This document shows positions 32,288 to 46,824 of a DNA stretch of 47,411 bases, piece after piece. Below the pieces are notes generated by a model, which saw nothing but the letters and a program-made list of their open reading frames with translations, did not search any database and had not been told where the DNA came from. A program made the translations under genes and the position numbers. The stretch covers positions 1 to 47,411 of the forward strand of contig PKUM01000295.1 in NCBI GenBank assembly GCA_002868855.1. Reading direction: 5' to 3'. The DNA comes from Chromatiales bacterium (lineage in GTDB: Bacteria > Pseudomonadota > Gammaproteobacteria > Steroidobacterales > BM003). Positions within the stretch are counted from its first letter, which is position 1, and every line of letters begins with the position of its first letter.

Positions 32288-32686
32288 TCAGGGGCATATT
32301 CCCTTCAGCACCAGGTGCTGATAGCTAACCAGGCCCTGTATCTCGCCACGCGAAATCACCGGCGCCGCCGAAATGCCAAACCGACCGAAAAACCGGGCAC
32401 AGTAACGTATGTCCATTTCGGGGCGTATGAACAACACCGGCTTGGACATGATCTCGTAGACATTGACACGGTCCGCTGAGCGGTTCTGGGCCAGTACGCG
32501 GGTGGCAATGTCCGATGGCACGACTATGCCGTACTCGTCGTGCTTGGTACGACGATTGATGATCAGATGATGGGCGGAATTTTGCCGCATCAATTCGACC
32601 GCTTCCGTTACGGTGGTCATGCCGTCGACCATGACGAAATCCTGCTCCATGACTTCCTGGGCCTGGATTCTTTTTGTGTCGTTCAT
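32288..32686 (-). CDS. CBS-pair domain protein
   Basis: VMEQDFVMVDGMTTVTEAVELMRQNSAHHLIINRR...GIVVPSDI and IMSKPVLFIRPEMDIRYCARFFGRFGISAAPVI: two CBS repeats. Confidence 0.85.
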   Translation of the reverse strand: MNDTKRIQAQEVMEQDFVMVDGMTTVTEAVELMRQNSAHHLIINRRTKHDEYGIVVPSDIATRVLAQNRSADRVNVYEIMSKPVLFIRPEMDIRYCARFFGRFGISAAPVISRGEIQGLVSYQHLVLKGICP

Positions 32687-33039
32687 ATCTGCTCTTCCTC
32701 CTCCAGTGCCGGCGCGATTTTTTCGACCTGATGCGCAACTCCGACCGCATCTTCGACGTCGATCTGAAACGCGATTCCGGTGCCGGGTGAGGTGTCGAAC
32801 TCACCGGCAATACTTATGGTCTCCAGGATCGGTCGCGCCCGATGTTCCTCTACCAGGAGCAGGACGACATCCCGCTGCGTTTCGAGGGTCAGGCCGAGGA
32901 AGGTCTTTTTCTCGTCGATGCCTTGTCCCCGTGCATTTGTGATAACCGTACACCCAGTCGCGCCGGCTTTTCGCGCCGCCTCGGTGATCGCCTCCGTCTT
33001 GGTGTCATTGACGAATGCAATGACGAGTTTGAATCTCAT
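32683..33039 (-). CDS. PII-like signalling protein
   Basis: KLVIAFVNDTKTEAITEAARKAGATGCTVITNARGQG...DVVLLLVEEHRARPILETI...GIAFQIDVEDAVGV: PII-type ferredoxin-like fold pattern; 4-bp overlap with CBS gene. Confidence 0.82.
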   Translation of the reverse strand: MRFKLVIAFVNDTKTEAITEAARKAGATGCTVITNARGQGIDEKKTFLGLTLETQRDVVLLLVEEHRARPILETISIAGEFDTSPGTGIAFQIDVEDAVGVAHQVEKIAPALEEEEQI

Positions 33040-33053
33040 TTGCTGTCTCCTTT

Positions 33054-33854
33054 TCAGCTATGCGCTGTTGTGCTCTGGCGGTTGTCTTGGTTTGTCTCTG
33101 GATCGAGGTTGTTTTTACGGTACTCGGTGATTTGCGCGTAGGTCATGACTGCCATGATCGGAAACAGGCTGGCAAATGCGATCAGCCCGAAACCGTCGAT
33201 CAGCGGATTGCGGCCCGGAATTGCCTCCGCGAGGCCGAGTCCGAGCGCCGCGACGATAGGAACCGTGACGGTTGAGGTCGTAACGCCACCGGAATCATAG
33301 GCAAGCGGAATGATATTGCGTGGTGCGAACATCGTCTGAATCGTGACCACGAAATAGCCACAGATAATGAACCAGTGGATCGGGGCGCCGATGATGATGC
33401 GGAGCACGCCCAGCGTCAGGCCGACGGCTACCCCGATGGCGACCGCGATTCGCAGTCCCCAGGTGCTTACGCTGCCGGCAGAGAGTTCACTCGCCTTGAT
33501 TGCGACTGCTATCAGCGCGGGTTCGGCGATGGTCGTGCTGAAGCCGATTGCAAACGCGAATGCATAAATCCAGCCGAAATCGCGCCAATCGACAACAGCC
33601 GAAGTGCCCAGTATTTCGGGCGAGGTCAGTTGCGAAGCCATTAGCCGGCCGATCGGGAACAGCGCCTGTTCCAGTCCGATCAGAAACAGCGACAGCCCGA
33701 TCAGCACATAGCCAAAGCCGATGGCAATGGCGCGCGGATTCGGCAGCGCCCGCCGCAGAATGACGAACTGGAAGACCAGCAGAATGGTCGCGATCGGCAA
33801 TACATCCCGAATGGTGCCGAGCAGGACCTGGATCGCTTCGCCGAAACTGTCCAT
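33054..33854 (-). CDS. DUF1538 multipass membrane protein (second copy)
   Basis: [66 protein letters not shown]; multiple TMs. Confidence 0.82.
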   Translation of the reverse strand: MDSFGEAIQVLLGTIRDVLPIATILLVFQFVILRRALPNPRAIAIGFGYVLIGLSLFLIGLEQALFPIGRLMASQLTSPEILGTSAVVDWRDFGWIYAFAFAIGFSTTIAEPALIAVAIKASELSAGSVSTWGLRIAVAIGVAVGLTLGVLRIIIGAPIHWFIICGYFVVTIQTMFAPRNIIPLAYDSGGVTTSTVTVPIVAALGLGLAEAIPGRNPLIDGFGLIAFASLFPIMAVMTYAQITEYRKNNLDPETNQDNRQSTTAHS

Positions 33855-34586
33855 CTAGACGAGTATTCCGTAGATCATGACGAAGATCATTGGAGTCAGA
33901 GAGGCAAACGCGATCAGTCCGAATCCGTCCACTACCGGATTCCTGCCCTTGATCGAAGAAGCCAGCCCGACTCCCAGTGCTGTAACGAGGGGTACCGTGA
34001 TCGTCGAGGTCGTGACCCCGCCGGAGTCGTAGGCAATTCCGATAATCTCGCGCGGCGCGAAAGCCGTGACGATCATAACGATCACGTAGCCACCGGCGAT
34101 CAGGTAGTTGATCGGCCAGCCCTTCAGTATGCGCCAGACTCCGATGACCAGCGAGCATCCGACGGCGAGGGCGACTGTAAGGCGCAGGCCGAGTGCGTAG
34201 CCTTCCATCGCGTCATTGTCGGCGCCAATGACACCTGCCTCGGCGGCAACCTGTGAGGCTTCCTCGGCAATGGCGATCAGTGCCGGCTCGGCTGCGGTCG
34301 TACCGAAACCCAGGGCAAAGGCAAAGACTATCAGCCAGACCAGCGATCCCTTGCGCGCAAGAGAGTGCGCCATCGACTCGCCAATCGGAAACAAGCCCAG
34401 TTCGAGGCCGCGGATAAAAAACGTCAGTCCGAGTATTACCAGCAGCAGTCCGCCTATCATCTGTCCCAGTTGCGGCAATGGCTGGCGCAAAACGACGAGC
34501 TGAAAGAACGCTATGACCAGGATGATGGGCAACAGATCCCGACCGCTCTCGGACAGTCGCCCGAGCACTCTGTGCAACCAACTCAT
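33855..34586 (-). CDS. DUF1538 multipass membrane protein (first copy)
   Basis: [66 protein letters not shown]; start at 34586 chosen over the longer ORF; TAG abuts the next ATG directly. Confidence 0.82.
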
Positions 34587-34784
34587 GCCGGGCGTGATCT
34601 CCGCATTCTCGTATTCCGAACCGTATATTATGGCTTGACCCCGCACCGCAATGATAGAAAACCCGCGAACCTCGCGGCAATGCGTAAAATACGTAGCGGG
34701 CTGACCGGGCGGCCTGCTCGTTGCGCGAAATCGGGCGCCGGCTCGACGCTCCGGCATTCAAAGGAAAGGAAACGGTAATTCATT

Positions 34785-35849
34785 ATGGCAGTTCAGCACC
34801 TGCTGGCCGCATTCGACGGCTGGCGCGAACAACGCAAACCCCTGGTACTGGCGACGATCGTCGAGACCCTGGGTTCGACCTATAGCAAGGCCGGGACCCA
34901 CATGCTGATCGAGCCGGGTGGCGATTTCGAGGGCCTCGTGAGCGGCGGTTGTCTCGAAGGCGACCTTGTAGAGCATGCGCGAGACGTACTGGGAAACGGG
35001 CGGCCAAAGCTGGTGGTCTATGACATGCGCGACGAAGAAGCGGACCAGGTCTGGGGGCTCGGGCTTGGCTGCAACGGTGCGGTGCGAATATTTCTCCAGG
35101 CTCTCGATCCTGTGTCCGGCTATGAGCCGTTCATGGCAATGAGCCGGCTGATGTGCGACGCCGGGCGCGGCGCCTACGCGCTTGTAATTGCTGAAAATGG
35201 CGCCCCGCCTGCGGTCCCGGAGTGGATGGTCGCTGGAACCGCTGGGGTGCTCTCCGGGTCCGGTAGCGGCGGCTTTCTGCGCGACTACTGCGACGCGGCG
35301 GCCAATGCCGGCAGGGTCGATAACCTGCAGCTTGACGGTACGGAACTCGAGATCTTCGCGGCCCCGGTGCCCGTGATACCCAGGGTATTGCTGCTGGGCG
35401 CCGGTCCGGACGTGATTCCGCTCGCACGCATGGGGGAAATGCTGGGATGGCGTGTCACCGTGGCGGATCATCGCCCGGCTTATGTGGAGCGTCTGCGTCA
35501 GGTTGTTTCCGCAGAGATTCGCGCGACTTCGGCAGAAGGTCTGAGCGAAGCGCTCAATCTCGATAATTTCGACGCATGTGTCGTCATGAGTCACCACTAC
35601 CTCACCGATCTCGAATACCTGCGCTGCCTGGCACCCAGCCGCGTTCCGTATATCGGGATGCTGGGTCCGGAAAAACGCAGGAACCGTTTGTTCGACGACC
35701 TCGGCGAAGCGCACCGGAAGCTGCAGGGCAGGGCATACGGACCGGTCGGCCTCGATATCGGGGCCGATGATGCCGACAGCATCGCTCTGTCTATTGCCGC
35801 ACAAATACAGGCCGTGCTGAAGGATGCCGGCGGCGGACATCTTTGCTGA
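34785..35849 (+). CDS. XdhC/CoxI family molybdoenzyme accessory protein
   Basis: VLATIVETLGSTYSKAGTHMLIEPGGDFEGLVSGGCLEGDLVEHA; VWGLGLGCNGAVRIFLQ; PYIGMLGPEKRRNRLF. Confidence 0.92.
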   Translation: MAVQHLLAAFDGWREQRKPLVLATIVETLGSTYSKAGTHMLIEPGGDFEGLVSGGCLEGDLVEHARDVLGNGRPKLVVYDMRDEEADQVWGLGLGCNGAVRIFLQALDPVSGYEPFMAMSRLMCDAGRGAYALVIAENGAPPAVPEWMVAGTAGVLSGSGSGGFLRDYCDAAANAGRVDNLQLDGTELEIFAAPVPVIPRVLLLGAGPDVIPLARMGEMLGWRVTVADHRPAYVERLRQVVSAEIRATSAEGLSEALNLDNFDACVVMSHHYLTDLEYLRCLAPSRVPYIGMLGPEKRRNRLFDDLGEAHRKLQGRAYGPVGLDIGADDADSIALSIAAQIQAVLKDAGGGHLC

Positions 35850-35949
35850 GAGCCGGTGTTGCGCTCATGCAGAGCGGGGCGTGCATGCCGGGCAATGGAC
35901 GAAATCGGGTTTTACATCATAATGGTGCGATTGCAATGGTCTGTTTAGG

Positions 35950-36960
35950 ATGACGATGTTTCCGCGAATTGCAGCGGTTGTGCTCTGTTTTATGTGCGCG
36001 AATGCGTTGGCGCAGGACTGTACCTTCGATTCTCCGGATCTCCTGCTGCGGCCGGGCGAGCCCGGGCAGCCGACCGAGGTGCTGATACGCGTCTACGTGG
36101 TCGATATCACGAAAATTCTCGATGTCGAACAGAGTTTCGTGACCGATGTGTATTTCCGGGCGGAATGGACCGACCCGAGACTGGTCCACGATGGGCCGTT
36201 ACCCTGTCAGGCCCGGCCTGACCAGGTCTGGACGCCCCAGGTCCAGTCGTTGAACCGGCGGACGTTGGACAGTGCGAGTCCGCCGCAAATCCGGGTCGCT
36301 CCGGACGGCAGCGTGTTTTTTGTCGTGCGCCGCTTCGGCGAGTTTTCGTACGAGGCCGATCTCGGCGATTTCCCGTTTGACGAGCAGACGTTGTCGTTCG
36401 TGATTGTTTCCGCTCACGAGCCGCAGGAAGTAGTTCTGCGCTCGGATGAGGCCGCGGTGGGGATGGCCGAGCGGCTGTCTGTCGTCAACTGGAATCTGAA
36501 TTTTCGCGAGGCGCGCAGCGGCGCGCTCTATGTAGCGCCTCGCGATCGCACGGTTGCCCGACTCGACATCGAGTTCAGTGCGAAAAGGCTGACCGGCTAC
36601 TATGTGTGGAAGCTGATCGTCCCGCTGGTGCTGGTCGTGATGATGTCGTGGTCGGTATTCTGGATCGCCCCGGTCCACGTCGCGCCGCGGCTCGGTCTCG
36701 CCGCGACCTCGATGCTGACACTGATCGCATACCGCTTCGCTCTGGCGTCGATACTGCCGCCGATCGCGTACATGACACGAATGGACCTGTTCCTGGTATT
36801 CGCCTCGGTACTCGTCTTTGGCGCACTCGCCGTTGCGGTCGCTGTGACCTATGTAGCGGACAAGGGCAGGGATGGACTGGCGCTGCGGATCAATGAAGTA
36901 GCTCGCTGGTTTTCGCCGCTGATGTTCGCCGCGGTTATCGTTTTCGCATTCTGGTTTTGA
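35950..36960 (+). CDS. Prokaryotic pentameric (Cys-loop) ligand-gated ion channel homolog
   Basis: Signal peptide; beta-rich extracellular domain (VRVYVVDITKILDVEQSFVTDVYFRAEWTDPRL... FGEFSYEADLGDFPFDEQTLSFVI); RLTGYYVWKLIVPLVLVVMMSWSVFWI (M1), RLGLAATSMLTLIAYRFALASILPPIAYMTRMDLFL (M2-M3), C-terminal M4. Confidence 0.85.
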   Translation: MTMFPRIAAVVLCFMCANALAQDCTFDSPDLLLRPGEPGQPTEVLIRVYVVDITKILDVEQSFVTDVYFRAEWTDPRLVHDGPLPCQARPDQVWTPQVQSLNRRTLDSASPPQIRVAPDGSVFFVVRRFGEFSYEADLGDFPFDEQTLSFVIVSAHEPQEVVLRSDEAAVGMAERLSVVNWNLNFREARSGALYVAPRDRTVARLDIEFSAKRLTGYYVWKLIVPLVLVVMMSWSVFWIAPVHVAPRLGLAATSMLTLIAYRFALASILPPIAYMTRMDLFLVFASVLVFGALAVAVAVTYVADKGRDGLALRINEVARWFSPLMFAAVIVFAFWF

Positions 36961-37583
36961 CGGCGGCGGCGGCAGCAGCGAACGAGGTCTGGGCGGTCAT
37001 TTTGGCTGCCGGTGCGTCCACTCGCTTTGGCACTCCGAAACAACTCTTCCGCTGGCGCGGGCGGACGTTGCTGCAACATGCACTGGCTCATGCGCGGCAG
37101 ACTGTTTCCGATCGCGTCGTGATTGTAACGGGTGCGTATGCGAATCAGCTGGATGTTGTGCTCGGCCCCGACCGCGCGGTGTGCGTCTATAACGCAGGTT
37201 GGCGCGACGGCATGGGGTCATCGATACGGGCCGGAATTGCGGCTTTGCCGGGCGATTGCCCGGCGGCACTGGTGATGCCCTGCGATCAGCCGCTGGTAGA
37301 TGGCAGGGATCTTGCGGCGTTGGTCGGACATTGGCGTAAGCGGCCGCTGCGCGCGGTTGCCAGCGGGTATGCCGGTATATTCGGAATCCCGGCGGTACTG
37401 CCGGCGCGGTTGTTTCCGGCGCTTGGCGAACTGCACGGAGACCGCGGCGCCCGGGAGGTGCTGCGCCGCGAGGGCCACCGGTTGGACGTGCTCGAGCTGC
37501 CGGCCGGTCATCTGGATGTCGATGATCGATTTGCTGCATCGCGGCTCGACGATGAGGATGCCGGGACACAAGCGGATCGCTGA
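36957..37583 (+). CDS. MocA/MobA-like molybdenum cofactor nucleotidyltransferase
   Basis: VWAVILAAGASTRFGTPKQLFRWRGRTLLQHAL; MPCDQPLVDGRDL; TTG start overlapping the channel gene stop (TTGA). Confidence 0.85.
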   Translation: MTAAAAAANEVWAVILAAGASTRFGTPKQLFRWRGRTLLQHALAHARQTVSDRVVIVTGAYANQLDVVLGPDRAVCVYNAGWRDGMGSSIRAGIAALPGDCPAALVMPCDQPLVDGRDLAALVGHWRKRPLRAVASGYAGIFGIPAVLPARLFPALGELHGDRGAREVLRREGHRLDVLELPAGHLDVDDRFAASRLDDEDAGTQADR

Positions 37584-41626: not shown

Positions 41627-42928
41627 GTGGATATGAGCAGTAACCAGGATTTGCAAAAACGCCGTGATGCGGCGCTGGCGCGCGGACAGACCAACCTGCT
41701 TCCGGTTTTTGTCGAGAAGGCCGAAAACGCAGAGTTGTGGGACGTGGCCGGGCGTCGCTACATCGATTTCGCCGGCGGTATTGCGGTGCTGAACACCGGG
41801 CATGTGCACCCCCGGGTTCGGGCGGCGGTCGAACGCCAACTCGGCAAGTTTTCTCATACCTGTTTCATGGTGACACCGTATGAGTCGGGTGTGGCACTTG
41901 CCGAGAAGCTCAATGCAATCGTTCCGATTTCCGGGCCGACGCGCAGCATGTTTGTTACGACCGGGGCGGAGGCGGTGGAAAACGCGGTGAAAATCGCACG
42001 GAGCTTCACGGGTCGATCCGGGGTCATCGCATTTAGCGGCGGATTCCATGGACGGACGATGATGTGCATGGGGCTGACCGGGAAAGTGATGCCTTACAAG
42101 AGCAGTTTCGGGCCGATGCCGGGCGAGATTTATCACGCGCCCTACCCAATGGCCTACCAGGGTGTCACCGAAAAACAAGCGCTCGGCGGCATAGCCAGTC
42201 TGTTCAAAGTCGACATCGATCCGCAGCGGGTCGCCGCAATGATTGTTGAGCCGGTGCTGGGCGAGGGCGGTTACTACGTGGCACCGCCCGCATTCCTGCG
42301 TGGGCTGCGCGACATCTGTGACAAACACGGCATCGTATTGATCGCGGACGAAATCCAGAGCGGGTTTGCCCGCACCGGGAGGATGTTCGCGATCGAGCAT
42401 GCCGGCGTCGAGCCCGACCTGATAACGATGGCAAAGAGTCTCGCGGGCGGTTTTCCGCTAGCGGCGGTAACCGGGCGCCAGGAGATCATGGATGCCCCGG
42501 AGCCGGGAGGACTTGGCGGAACCTACGCTGCGTCGCCGTTGGCAACCGAAGCCGCGCTCGCGGTACTCGACGTCATTGAAGAGGAAGGCCTGACCGGGCG
42601 CGCAGACGCGATTGGAGAGATCCTGCGTGACGGTCTTGAAGCGTTGTCTGGCGAACTCGAGTGTGTGGGCGATATCCGCGGGCTGGGCGCGATGCTGGCG
42701 TGCGAACTGGTGACAGATAAATCCACCCGTGAACCGGACCCCGAGCTCACTGCGGCCGTGATGCGCGAAGCAGCGCAGCGTGGTCTCGTGCTGGTCACTT
42801 GCGGTATGTACGGCAACGTAATACGGATCATGGTGCCGCTGACGGCGAGCGATGCGATAGTGCGTGAGGGTCTCGATATTCTCGTCGAGTGTTTGCGCGA
42901 TCTCAGCGCGCGCCGGGCCGTTGCCTGA
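41627..42928 (+). CDS. gabT: 4-aminobutyrate aminotransferase-type class III aminotransferase
   Basis: RYIDFAGGIAVLNTGHVHPRV, VTTGAEAVENAVKIAR, ADEIQSGFARTGRMFAIEHAGVEPDLITMAKSLAGGFPLAAVTG; ORF start in track GTG/ATG near 41627-41633. Confidence 0.92.
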   Translation: MDMSSNQDLQKRRDAALARGQTNLLPVFVEKAENAELWDVAGRRYIDFAGGIAVLNTGHVHPRVRAAVERQLGKFSHTCFMVTPYESGVALAEKLNAIVPISGPTRSMFVTTGAEAVENAVKIARSFTGRSGVIAFSGGFHGRTMMCMGLTGKVMPYKSSFGPMPGEIYHAPYPMAYQGVTEKQALGGIASLFKVDIDPQRVAAMIVEPVLGEGGYYVAPPAFLRGLRDICDKHGIVLIADEIQSGFARTGRMFAIEHAGVEPDLITMAKSLAGGFPLAAVTGRQEIMDAPEPGGLGGTYAASPLATEAALAVLDVIEEEGLTGRADAIGEILRDGLEALSGELECVGDIRGLGAMLACELVTDKSTREPDPELTAAVMREAAQRGLVLVTCGMYGNVIRIMVPLTASDAIVREGLDILVECLRDLSARRAVA

Positions 42929-42942
42929 GCGCCGAATTCTCC

Positions 42943-44400
42943 CTACAGGCCGCCCATGCAGAGATACTTGATCTCGATATAGTCATCGATGCCATAGCGT
43001 GAACCCTCCCTGCCGATCCCGGATTCCTTTACTCCGCCGAATGGCGCAACTTCGGTGGAAATAATGCCCTCGTTAATGCCGACGATGCCATATTCCAGTG
43101 CTTCGGCTACCCGCCACACGCGGCCGATGTCGCGAGCATAGAAGTACGCGGCGAGGCCATACGGAGTGTCATTGGCAATTCGTATCGCCGACGCTTCGTC
43201 GCTGAACCTGAAAAGCGGCGCGACCGGCCCAAAAATTTCCTCCTGCGCGATCGGCATCTCGGGTGTTACGTCACCCAACACGGTAGGCGCGTAATAGTTA
43301 GGGCCGGCGTCATGGCGTCGGCCGCCGGTCAGTATGCGAGCGCCATGGGTGGCGGCATCGTTAACGAGACCCTCTACTTTCGCCACTGCAGCGGCATTGA
43401 TGAGCGGCCCTATCACGACGCCCTGCTGGTCGCCGCTCCCCACCGTCATTGACTCGACCCGGCGCGCAAGTTCAGCGGCAAATTCGGCGTAGACGCCGTC
43501 CTGTACCAGTAAGCGGTTCGCGCAGACACAGGTTTGCCCGGCATTGCGGTATTTCGATGCAATTGCGCCGTCCACGGCCGCATCAATATCGGCGTCATCG
43601 AACACGATAAAGGGCGCATTGCCGCCGAGTTCGAGGGAGACTTTCTTTACCGTTCCGGCGCATTGCCGCATCAGGATTTTGCCAACAGCGGTCGAACCGG
43701 TAAACGAGAGTTTTCGGACCAGCGGGCTGCTGCACAGTTCTTCACCGCTGGCAGCCGCATGCGCAGTAGGGACGATATTAATCACACCGGGCGGTATCTT
43801 CGCGCGCGCCGCGAGCTCTGCCAGCGCAAGCGCGCACAACGGTGTGTCTTCAGCCGGCTTGACTACTGCGGTGCAGCCGGCCGCGAGGGCGGGAGCAATC
43901 TTGCGTGTAATCATCGCAACCGGAAAATTCCATGGTGTAATCGCCGCGACGACACCAATCGGCTGTTTCAGGGTCAGTATTCTGCGGTCCGCCGCGGGTC
44001 CCGGGATCACATCGCCGTAAATCCGTTTGCCCTCTTCGGCAAACCACTCCACGAAAGCTGCCCCGTATGCGACCTCACCGCGTGCCTCGGCGAGAGGTTT
44101 GCCCTGTTCGGCTGTCATCAACCGGGCGAGGTCTTCCTGGTGTTCGAGAATCAACCGGTGCCAGCGCTGCAGGCAGGCGGCTCTGTCACTGGCGGTCCTG
44201 GCGCGCCATTCCGGCAGTGCCCGCGCAGCTGCGGCAATCGCGGCCCGGGTCTCACTGCGGCCGCAATTCGCCACGCTGGCAACAGCAGCCCCGGTGGCCG
44301 GGTTGGCAACGGCGAACACGGCGCCATCGTCGGCATCCGTCCATTCGCCGTCAATGAAAGCCTGAGTCTTCAGCAGTGTGATGTCGGACAGTTCTGGCAT
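42943..44400 (-). CDS. gabD: Succinate-semialdehyde dehydrogenase-type ALDH
   Basis: ITPWNFPVAMITRKIAPALAAGCTAVVKPAEDTPL, LELGGNAPFIVFDDADIDAAV, KYRNAGQTCVCANRLLVQDGVY; convergent with gabT. Confidence 0.93.
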   Translation of the reverse strand: MPELSDITLLKTQAFIDGEWTDADDGAVFAVANPATGAAVASVANCGRSETRAAIAAAARALPEWRARTASDRAACLQRWHRLILEHQEDLARLMTAEQGKPLAEARGEVAYGAAFVEWFAEEGKRIYGDVIPGPAADRRILTLKQPIGVVAAITPWNFPVAMITRKIAPALAAGCTAVVKPAEDTPLCALALAELAARAKIPPGVINIVPTAHAAASGEELCSSPLVRKLSFTGSTAVGKILMRQCAGTVKKVSLELGGNAPFIVFDDADIDAAVDGAIASKYRNAGQTCVCANRLLVQDGVYAEFAAELARRVESMTVGSGDQQGVVIGPLINAAAVAKVEGLVNDAATHGARILTGGRRHDAGPNYYAPTVLGDVTPEMPIAQEEIFGPVAPLFRFSDEASAIRIANDTPYGLAAYFYARDIGRVWRVAEALEYGIVGINEGIISTEVAPFGGVKESGIGREGSRYGIDDYIEIKYLCMGGL

Positions 44401-45978: not shown

Positions 45979-46824
45979 CTAGTCGCCGTCGCCGTCGTTT
46001 TCGACCTCAAAATAGTAGACGCCGACCCCGGCGCGATGAAGCATGTTGCAGTGCGGATAGTCCGTGTCGGCTTCATGTCCGGCAAGCCACTCGTCCAGCA
46101 TGTCGGTGCTGTAGCGGCCCTGGCGCACGGCGAGCTCGCGGAACTGGCTGACATCGCGTGCGAGCAACCGGTCCGTCCACACGAATCGCTGCATCCAGCG
46201 CTGGTCTTTGTCCGGTTGCTCCATGTTGTGCAACAGCGTTCGAGACAGATCGGTCATCGAGCGGGTCACGACATGAGCGAAATGGCGGCCCGGCTGCGAG
46301 ATTGTGAAGCAATCCGTGAGAACCCTGAGTCTGCCGTCTTCAGTGCGTTCGACGCAGCCCCATTCCTCGAGGTCGGTCAACAACTGTTCAGTCGCGGCAC
46401 CGCCGCCGACGCGCTGTGCGAGCGCGTCGAAACTCGGTGCCTCGCCTTCGATCGGCAACTCACGCGGCTTCTTGTCGAGGTCTGTGTAATCCTGGTCGTG
46501 ATGCCAGAAATGGAGAATTGTCGACAGCGGGGAAAACAGGCTGTGATCATCTCCCGGCTTTTTGTCGACGATCATTGCGGCGGCAATGTCTTCGGTAGTG
46601 AGGCCGGTTAGCGCGGCTACACGCTCGGGATCGTCTGCCGGCGACTCGAGGCCGAGGCTTCTGGCGCCGCCCGCGGCAAATGCGCGTCTGGCAATTACCG
46701 TGAATTCGCCATAGCCGACACCGAGGCGCAACAAAATGCGTCCGAACAAGGTCAGAAATCGTTCGAGGCCCGCGAGCAGTTCCTGACGGAAATGCTCGGA
46801 TTTGCTCCCTGGGTCTCCGCTCAC
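45979..46824 (-). CDS. DUF6502-like hypothetical protein
   Basis: RFLTLFGRILLRLGVGYGEFTVIARRAFAAGG pattern; convergent with preceding gene. Confidence 0.6.
   Translation of the reverse strand: MSGDPGSKSEHFRQELLAGLERFLTLFGRILLRLGVGYGEFTVIARRAFAAGGARSLGLESPADDPERVAALTGLTTEDIAAAMIVDKKPGDDHSLFSPLSTILHFWHHDQDYTDLDKKPRELPIEGEAPSFDALAQRVGGGAATEQLLTDLEEWGCVERTEDGRLRVLTDCFTISQPGRHFAHVVTRSMTDLSRTLLHNMEQPDKDQRWMQRFVWTDRLLARDVSQFRELAVRQGRYSTDMLDEWLAGHEADTDYPHCNMLHRAGVGVYYFEVENDGDGD

Follow-up and report, generated by a model that had tools for sequence, protein, structure and literature searches.

We identified a genuine bacterial pentameric ligand-gated ion channel (pLGIC), an additional member fitting the known superfamily, which is encoded between an xdhC-family gene and a mocA-like gene in the window (the whole stretch of 47,411 nucleotides that was analysed). 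Very probably the channel is sited there without a functional tie to these two neighbors. This reading is based on homology, motifs, fold, the gene junctions and a gene neighborhood that is not conserved. The channel gene with its segments and selected neighboring genes are compiled in Table 1.

Domains and fold of the channel protein

The open reading frame of the channel is intact and encodes 336 aa. A second candidate start codon, ATG, is located at 35956 with AGG a few nucleotides upstream, and the true start may be this codon rather than the one at 35950. Both neurotransmitter-gated channel domains were found in Pfam above cut-off: PF02931 (Neur_chan_LBD) covers residues 32–167 with E=7.5e-16 (58.6 bits, cut-off 26), and PF02932 (Neur_chan_memb) matches with E=2.3e-12 (48.1 bits, cut-off 28.1). 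The initial annotation had described the gene as a pLGIC homolog and had suggested this HMM search as a check; the two domains and the structural relatives listed below bear the description out. The channel is also hit by the NCBIfam models TIGR00860 and NF033918, with E-values no higher than 4e-35, yet stays under the cut-offs of both, which is expected of a divergent member.

In a PDB sequence search the top match was a GLIC/glycine-receptor chimera (2.4e-34), followed by GABA-A, glycine receptor, GLIC and ELIC chains. An AlphaFold model of the monomer, built with nine bacterial homologues (mean pLDDT 82.8), consists of a beta-strand extracellular domain and four helices. When this model was compared to the PDB using Foldseek, glycine receptors, GABA-A receptors and GLIC ranked at the top (1e-26 to 1e-27), and the 50 matches listed are exclusively pLGICs. 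By eye the N-terminus reads as a signal peptide, MFPRIAAVVLCFMCANALA/QDC. Together with the strands and helices of the model this agrees with the signal peptide, beta-type extracellular domain and four transmembrane segments recognized earlier. In the model the M3-M4 linker comprises 3 residues and there is no intracellular domain.

Pro142 and Asp144 in the Pro-loop, Arg213 just before M1, Pro225 in M1 and Pro270 in the M2-M3 loop are invariant (36/36 aligned rows). The [F/Y]PxD motif of the Pro-loop and the pre-M1 arginine are present as F141, P142, D144 and R213, and the invariant residues match the most conserved ones of the superfamily according to Jaiteh et al. (PMC4795631). Around residues 135–150 no cysteines bracket the Pro-loop; the channel contains Cys13, Cys16, Cys24 and Cys86 in total. 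Lacking the two bracketing cysteines, it is not an animal-type Cys-loop receptor.

The channel resembles proton-gated GLIC of Gloeobacter violaceus in its fold (Foldseek 2.8e-26 to the GLIC E35A mutant) and, like other bacterial members, in its Pro-loop without cysteines, but shares only 23% identity with it and has other filter residues. With the anion-selective glycine and GABA-A receptors, its top Foldseek matches, it has the fold in common, and with the glycine receptor also the M1-M2 length and the lack of an acid at -1'; in contrast to both it is devoid of Cys-loop cysteines and an intracellular domain, and the identity is about 25%. ELIC of Dickeya/Erwinia chrysanthemi likewise has a single extracellular domain with four helices, a short M3-M4 linker, a very similar M1 and M2 and gates at Leu9' and Phe16'. 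Compared with ELIC, the channel has an M1-M2 loop longer by two residues, the additional Cys24/Cys86 pair, proline instead of glutamate at -1' and replacements of Glu131 and Phe133 in the amine pocket. Identities of 34–38% are found to bacterial pLGICs from Holophagae, Verrucomicrobia and Gammaproteobacteria (L005, L006, L007, L009, L097), which have the same M2 signature without an acidic -1' and gene neighborhoods unrelated to that of the window.

Table 1. Positions of the channel gene, its predicted segments and selected neighboring genes in the window.
Feature	Position	Strand	Basis
xdhC-family molybdenum-hydroxylase maturation gene	34785..35849	+	PF13478 E=6.1e-28, PF02625 E=1e-23
pLGIC gene	35950..36960	+	PF02931 and PF02932 above cut-off, PDB relatives, AlphaFold, Foldseek
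Signal peptide (predicted), residues 1-21	35950..36012	+	By-eye reading; low-confidence helix 6-15 in model
Extracellular/periplasmic ligand-binding domain, residues 22-213	36013..36588	+	PF02931 32-167; model strands E42-E213
Cys24, first of co-occurring pair	36019..36021	+	Alignment of 36 homologues; model strand 22-23
Cys86, second of pair	36205..36207	+	Alignment of 36 homologues; model strand 86-88
Pro-loop FPFDEQ, residues 141-146, without flanking cysteines	36370..36387	+	P142, D144 invariant in 36 homologues; superfamily motif (PMC4795631)
M1 helix, residues 215-238, invariant Arg213 just before	36592..36663	+	Model and alignment
M2 pore helix, residues 244-268	36679..36753	+	Model and alignment
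Selectivity-filter segment Ala245(-2') Pro246(-1') Arg(0')	36682..36690	+	M2 alignment; no ELIC-type Glu(-1')
M3 helix, residues 277-304	36778..36861	+	Model
M4 helix, residues 308-335	36871..36954	+	Model
mocA-like NTP transferase gene	36957..37583	+	PF12804 E=6.2e-37; TIGR03310 below cut-off
gabT	41627-42928	+	Above TIGR00700 cut-off
gabD	42943-44400	-	Above TIGR01780 cut-off; convergent with gabT

Gene neighborhood and origin

The best NCBIfam model for the mocA-like gene is TIGR03310 (molybdenum cofactor cytidylyltransferase; E=7.3e-34, under the model's cut-off). As initially annotated, the distance from the xdhC stop (35849) to the channel ATG (35950) is exactly 100 bp, and the channel stop TGA (36958–36960) overlaps with the TTG start of the mocA-like gene (36957–36959) in the 4 bases TTGA. 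This TTG is the earliest start codon following an in-frame stop. A weak promoter-like site was detected upstream of the channel at 35896–35923; the scans returned 2 promoter-like sites with 0.8 expected by chance and 4 terminator-like sites with 2.7 expected by chance, and no terminator-like site was found on the + strand at either junction flanking the channel. Judging from this arrangement, it is plausible that the channel is co-transcribed with xdhC and mocA and that its translation is coupled to that of mocA. Seven genes are codirectional: xdhC, the channel gene, mocA, a methylthiopropionyl-CoA-ligase-like gene, an aldehyde dehydrogenase gene, a dienelactone-hydrolase-family gene and gabT. 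The genes for GABA catabolism, gabT (within this run) and gabD, follow the channel downstream at a distance of 4.7 kb. On the opposite strand, at 32288–34757 (-), two adjacent DUF1538 membrane-protein genes, then a P-II-like gene and then one with a CBS domain apparently constitute one operon divergent from xdhC. A DUF6502-family gene is located at the end of the window (45982–46824, -).

The initial annotation had tentatively linked the channel to molybdenum-hydroxylase maturation and to a corresponding ligand, had proposed a survey of pLGIC neighborhoods for xdhC and mocA, and had named a gene order not shared by relatives as grounds for refutation, which is what we observed. We gathered pLGIC homologues from the named genomes, relatives, the class and the order with wider flanks, and searched these flanks with the neighboring proteins of the window, using tblastn and blastp for XdhC and MocA. 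At the other homologous pLGIC loci fetched, no xdhC, mocA, gabT or gabD turned up, and for the remaining window genes we found nothing beyond one sigma-factor match; many flanks are short due to contig ends, so this result is strong, not exhaustive. There is no recurrent partner among the 94 genes located within two positions of other pLGICs: considering the best 25 of 121 Pfam families, the commonest is alpha/beta hydrolase with 4 genes and the other families account for 1 or 2 each.

The xdhC-mocA pair itself is also found without the channel. XdhC matches are present in 38 of 59 relatives. The genome G002, which belongs to the same family, has xdhC and mocA on one contig, overlapping by GTGA with no channel in between; the two genes are neighbors in G024 and G048 as well and, judged by their coordinates, in G042 and G047. 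Likewise gabT and gabD are linked in G001 and G003 in the absence of xdhC or a channel. For molybdenum hydroxylases there are three matches in the genome of the channel, all of them outside the window contig (C202, C2 and C336), and a single XdhC was found. The xdhC-mocA pair therefore looks like general maturation machinery. We conclude that the order xdhC-channel-mocA is a one-off among the genomes searched and that molybdenum-hydroxylase substrates are unsupported as ligands of the channel; the proposed functional tie did not hold up. Since the arrangement is unique to one genome, the neighboring genes say little about what opens the channel, and even such a striking gene order is a poor guide to the choice of ligands.

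At E≤1e-10 the channel has matches in 20 of the 296 genomes searched from the order and in 16 of the 369 from the class. No second genome of the host genus was found. In the tree the channel forms a long branch (1.58) without a well-supported sister, and within its family just one further channel was found, in G003; this one belongs to a 12-row clade with 100/100 support from which the window sequence is excluded. The patchy distribution and the long unplaced branch fit horizontal spread or repeated loss. The direct overlap of xdhC and mocA in G002 points to a probable insertion of the channel into an older pair, and this empty site together with the patchy distribution suggests that the gene was probably acquired horizontally. 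Alternatively, the channel may have been lost from relatives. Its base composition gives no sign of foreign DNA (GC 0.605, GC3 0.748, not clearly foreign).

Pore, selectivity and cysteine pair

The M2 segment VAPRLGLAATSMLTLIAYRFALASILPP can be aligned with ELIC and the glycine receptor. Its Leu 9' and Phe 16' equal the hydrophobic gate residues of ELIC, and the position of the ELIC filter glutamate (-1') is occupied by proline. An acidic residue at -1' occurs in none of the 28 core (closest) rows of the alignment and at -2' in a single one (L098); three core rows carry PAR, the motif of animal anion channels (L087, L088, L091). Among the eight more distant rows of the 36-row alignment, five have Asp at -1'. 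Acidic rings at the cytoplasmic mouth have been described for all known cation-selective pLGICs (PMC9897478); the channel has Ala245 and Pro246 at -2' and -1' and thus no acid at either position. Its A-P-R sequence, without acid at -1' and with a basic 0', is of the anion type, a motif which alone is weak evidence in prokaryotes: according to Jaiteh et al. the residues from -2' to 0' are unreliable predictors of selectivity in prokaryotic sequences (PMC4795631). For this reason we offer anion-selective or weakly selective conduction, in contrast to the cation-selective ELIC, as a prediction only. It follows from the missing acidic ring and has, in our view, an even chance of being correct.

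Both selectivities were predicted for bacterial pLGICs by Tasneem et al., 2004 (PMC549065). In the literature searched, the characterised bacterial pLGICs are cation channels, and we came across no prokaryotic pLGIC characterised as anion-selective. Tentatively, and with the odds somewhat against it, the channel may be part of a broad bacterial pLGIC group, spanning Gammaproteobacteria, Acidobacteriota, Verrucomicrobiota and Planctomycetota, whose members lack the acidic filter and are anion-selective, some of them with PAR and some with an N-terminal disulfide brace. If true, this group would provide a bacterial model for the selectivity of glycine and GABA-A receptors and would inform how anion selectivity arose.

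Cys24 and Cys86 are both present in 9 of the 36 homologues, distributed over several lineages, and neither occurs singly in any of them (0/36; the rows are related by descent). This joint presence suggests a disulfide, which is predicted to tie the N-terminus to the extracellular domain.

Ligand domain and possible modes of gating

ELIC opens in response to GABA and primary amines, and amines are held there by Glu131 and Phe133 of loop B (PMC3119659, PMC3430861). Aligned by eye via the GABA-A alignments, these residues correspond to Val153 and Ala155 in the channel. None of the 28 core rows has an acidic residue at position 153, and in loops A and C the channel has no aromatic residues at the aligned positions (Gln99, Pro197, Val202). 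From these residues the channel does not appear to be of the amine-gated ELIC type with its loop-B glutamate and aromatics. In loop D, read in the same way, Tyr68 and Arg70 are retained, which we take to match residues found in this loop in GABA-A alpha subunits. In 22 of the 28 core rows His or Tyr occupies position 156, and all 28 have Arg127. The pocket residues likewise do not seem to support purines, nicotinate or molybdate as ligands.

Sensing of GABA or a related compound would be in line with the loop-D residues, with the response of the relative ELIC and with the position of gabT in the codirectional run and of gabD beside it. We nevertheless consider it improbable: the two genes accompany none of the other pLGIC loci fetched and occur elsewhere as a linked pair without the channel, and the apparent lack of the canonical amine site argues against GABA despite the short distance to gabT and gabD. 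Equally doubtful is the idea that the operon has retained, by chance, a sensor that does not conduct or a channel that has degenerated. The sporadic distribution, the long branch and the poor fit to known ligand pockets would agree with it, but the reading frame is intact and the signal peptide, the four helices and all invariant gating residues have been kept.

Gating by protons or ions as in GLIC or DeCLIC, rather than by an organic ligand, we regard as rather unlikely; in its favor are the GLIC/glycine-receptor chimera as top PDB sequence match, the apparent lack of the canonical amine pocket and the calcium sensitivity of DeCLIC (PMC9897478). That the channel is a partner in molybdenum-hydroxylase maturation and gated by a hydroxylase substrate or molybdate seems very unlikely. 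The arrangement of the three genes on one strand is suggestive, and the 4-base overlap would couple translation of mocA; against this stand the other fetched pLGIC loci without xdhC or mocA, the empty site in G002 and the location of the hydroxylases on other contigs.

According to the preferred reading, a real pLGIC without functional tie to xdhC and mocA, the channel probably forms a homopentamer in the inner membrane with the ligand domain facing the periplasm. There a small molecule, or else protons or ions, would bind to the extracellular domain where two subunits meet. Binding would then be relayed by the pair of Asp144 in the Pro-loop and pre-M1 Arg213 and by the M2-M3 loop, the hydrophobic gates at Leu9' and Phe16' would open, and the pore would pass anions or be weakly selective. 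The gene, probably acquired and inserted between the older pair, would plausibly be read within the xdhC-mocA transcript, and joint work with these enzymes would not be required. As of 2016 a biological role was known for no pLGIC from a unicellular organism (PMC4795631), and our literature search for a knock-out phenotype of a bacterial pLGIC found nothing relevant.

Most bacterial genomes contain one pLGIC gene according to Tasneem et al. (PMC549065), whereas one family in the order includes several genomes with two or three (L082 on G563:C29, G583, G597, G561, G565). At locus L092 (34–834, 2782–3675) a related pLGIC gene has a cytochrome b561-like gene on one side and, beyond one intervening gene, a histidine kinase gene on the other. 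At locus L090 (474–1751, 1886–3400, 3758–4415) two pLGIC-like genes flank a gene with a periplasmic solute-binding (SBP_bac_3) and a transglycosylase domain, whose product could be a ligand-delivery partner.
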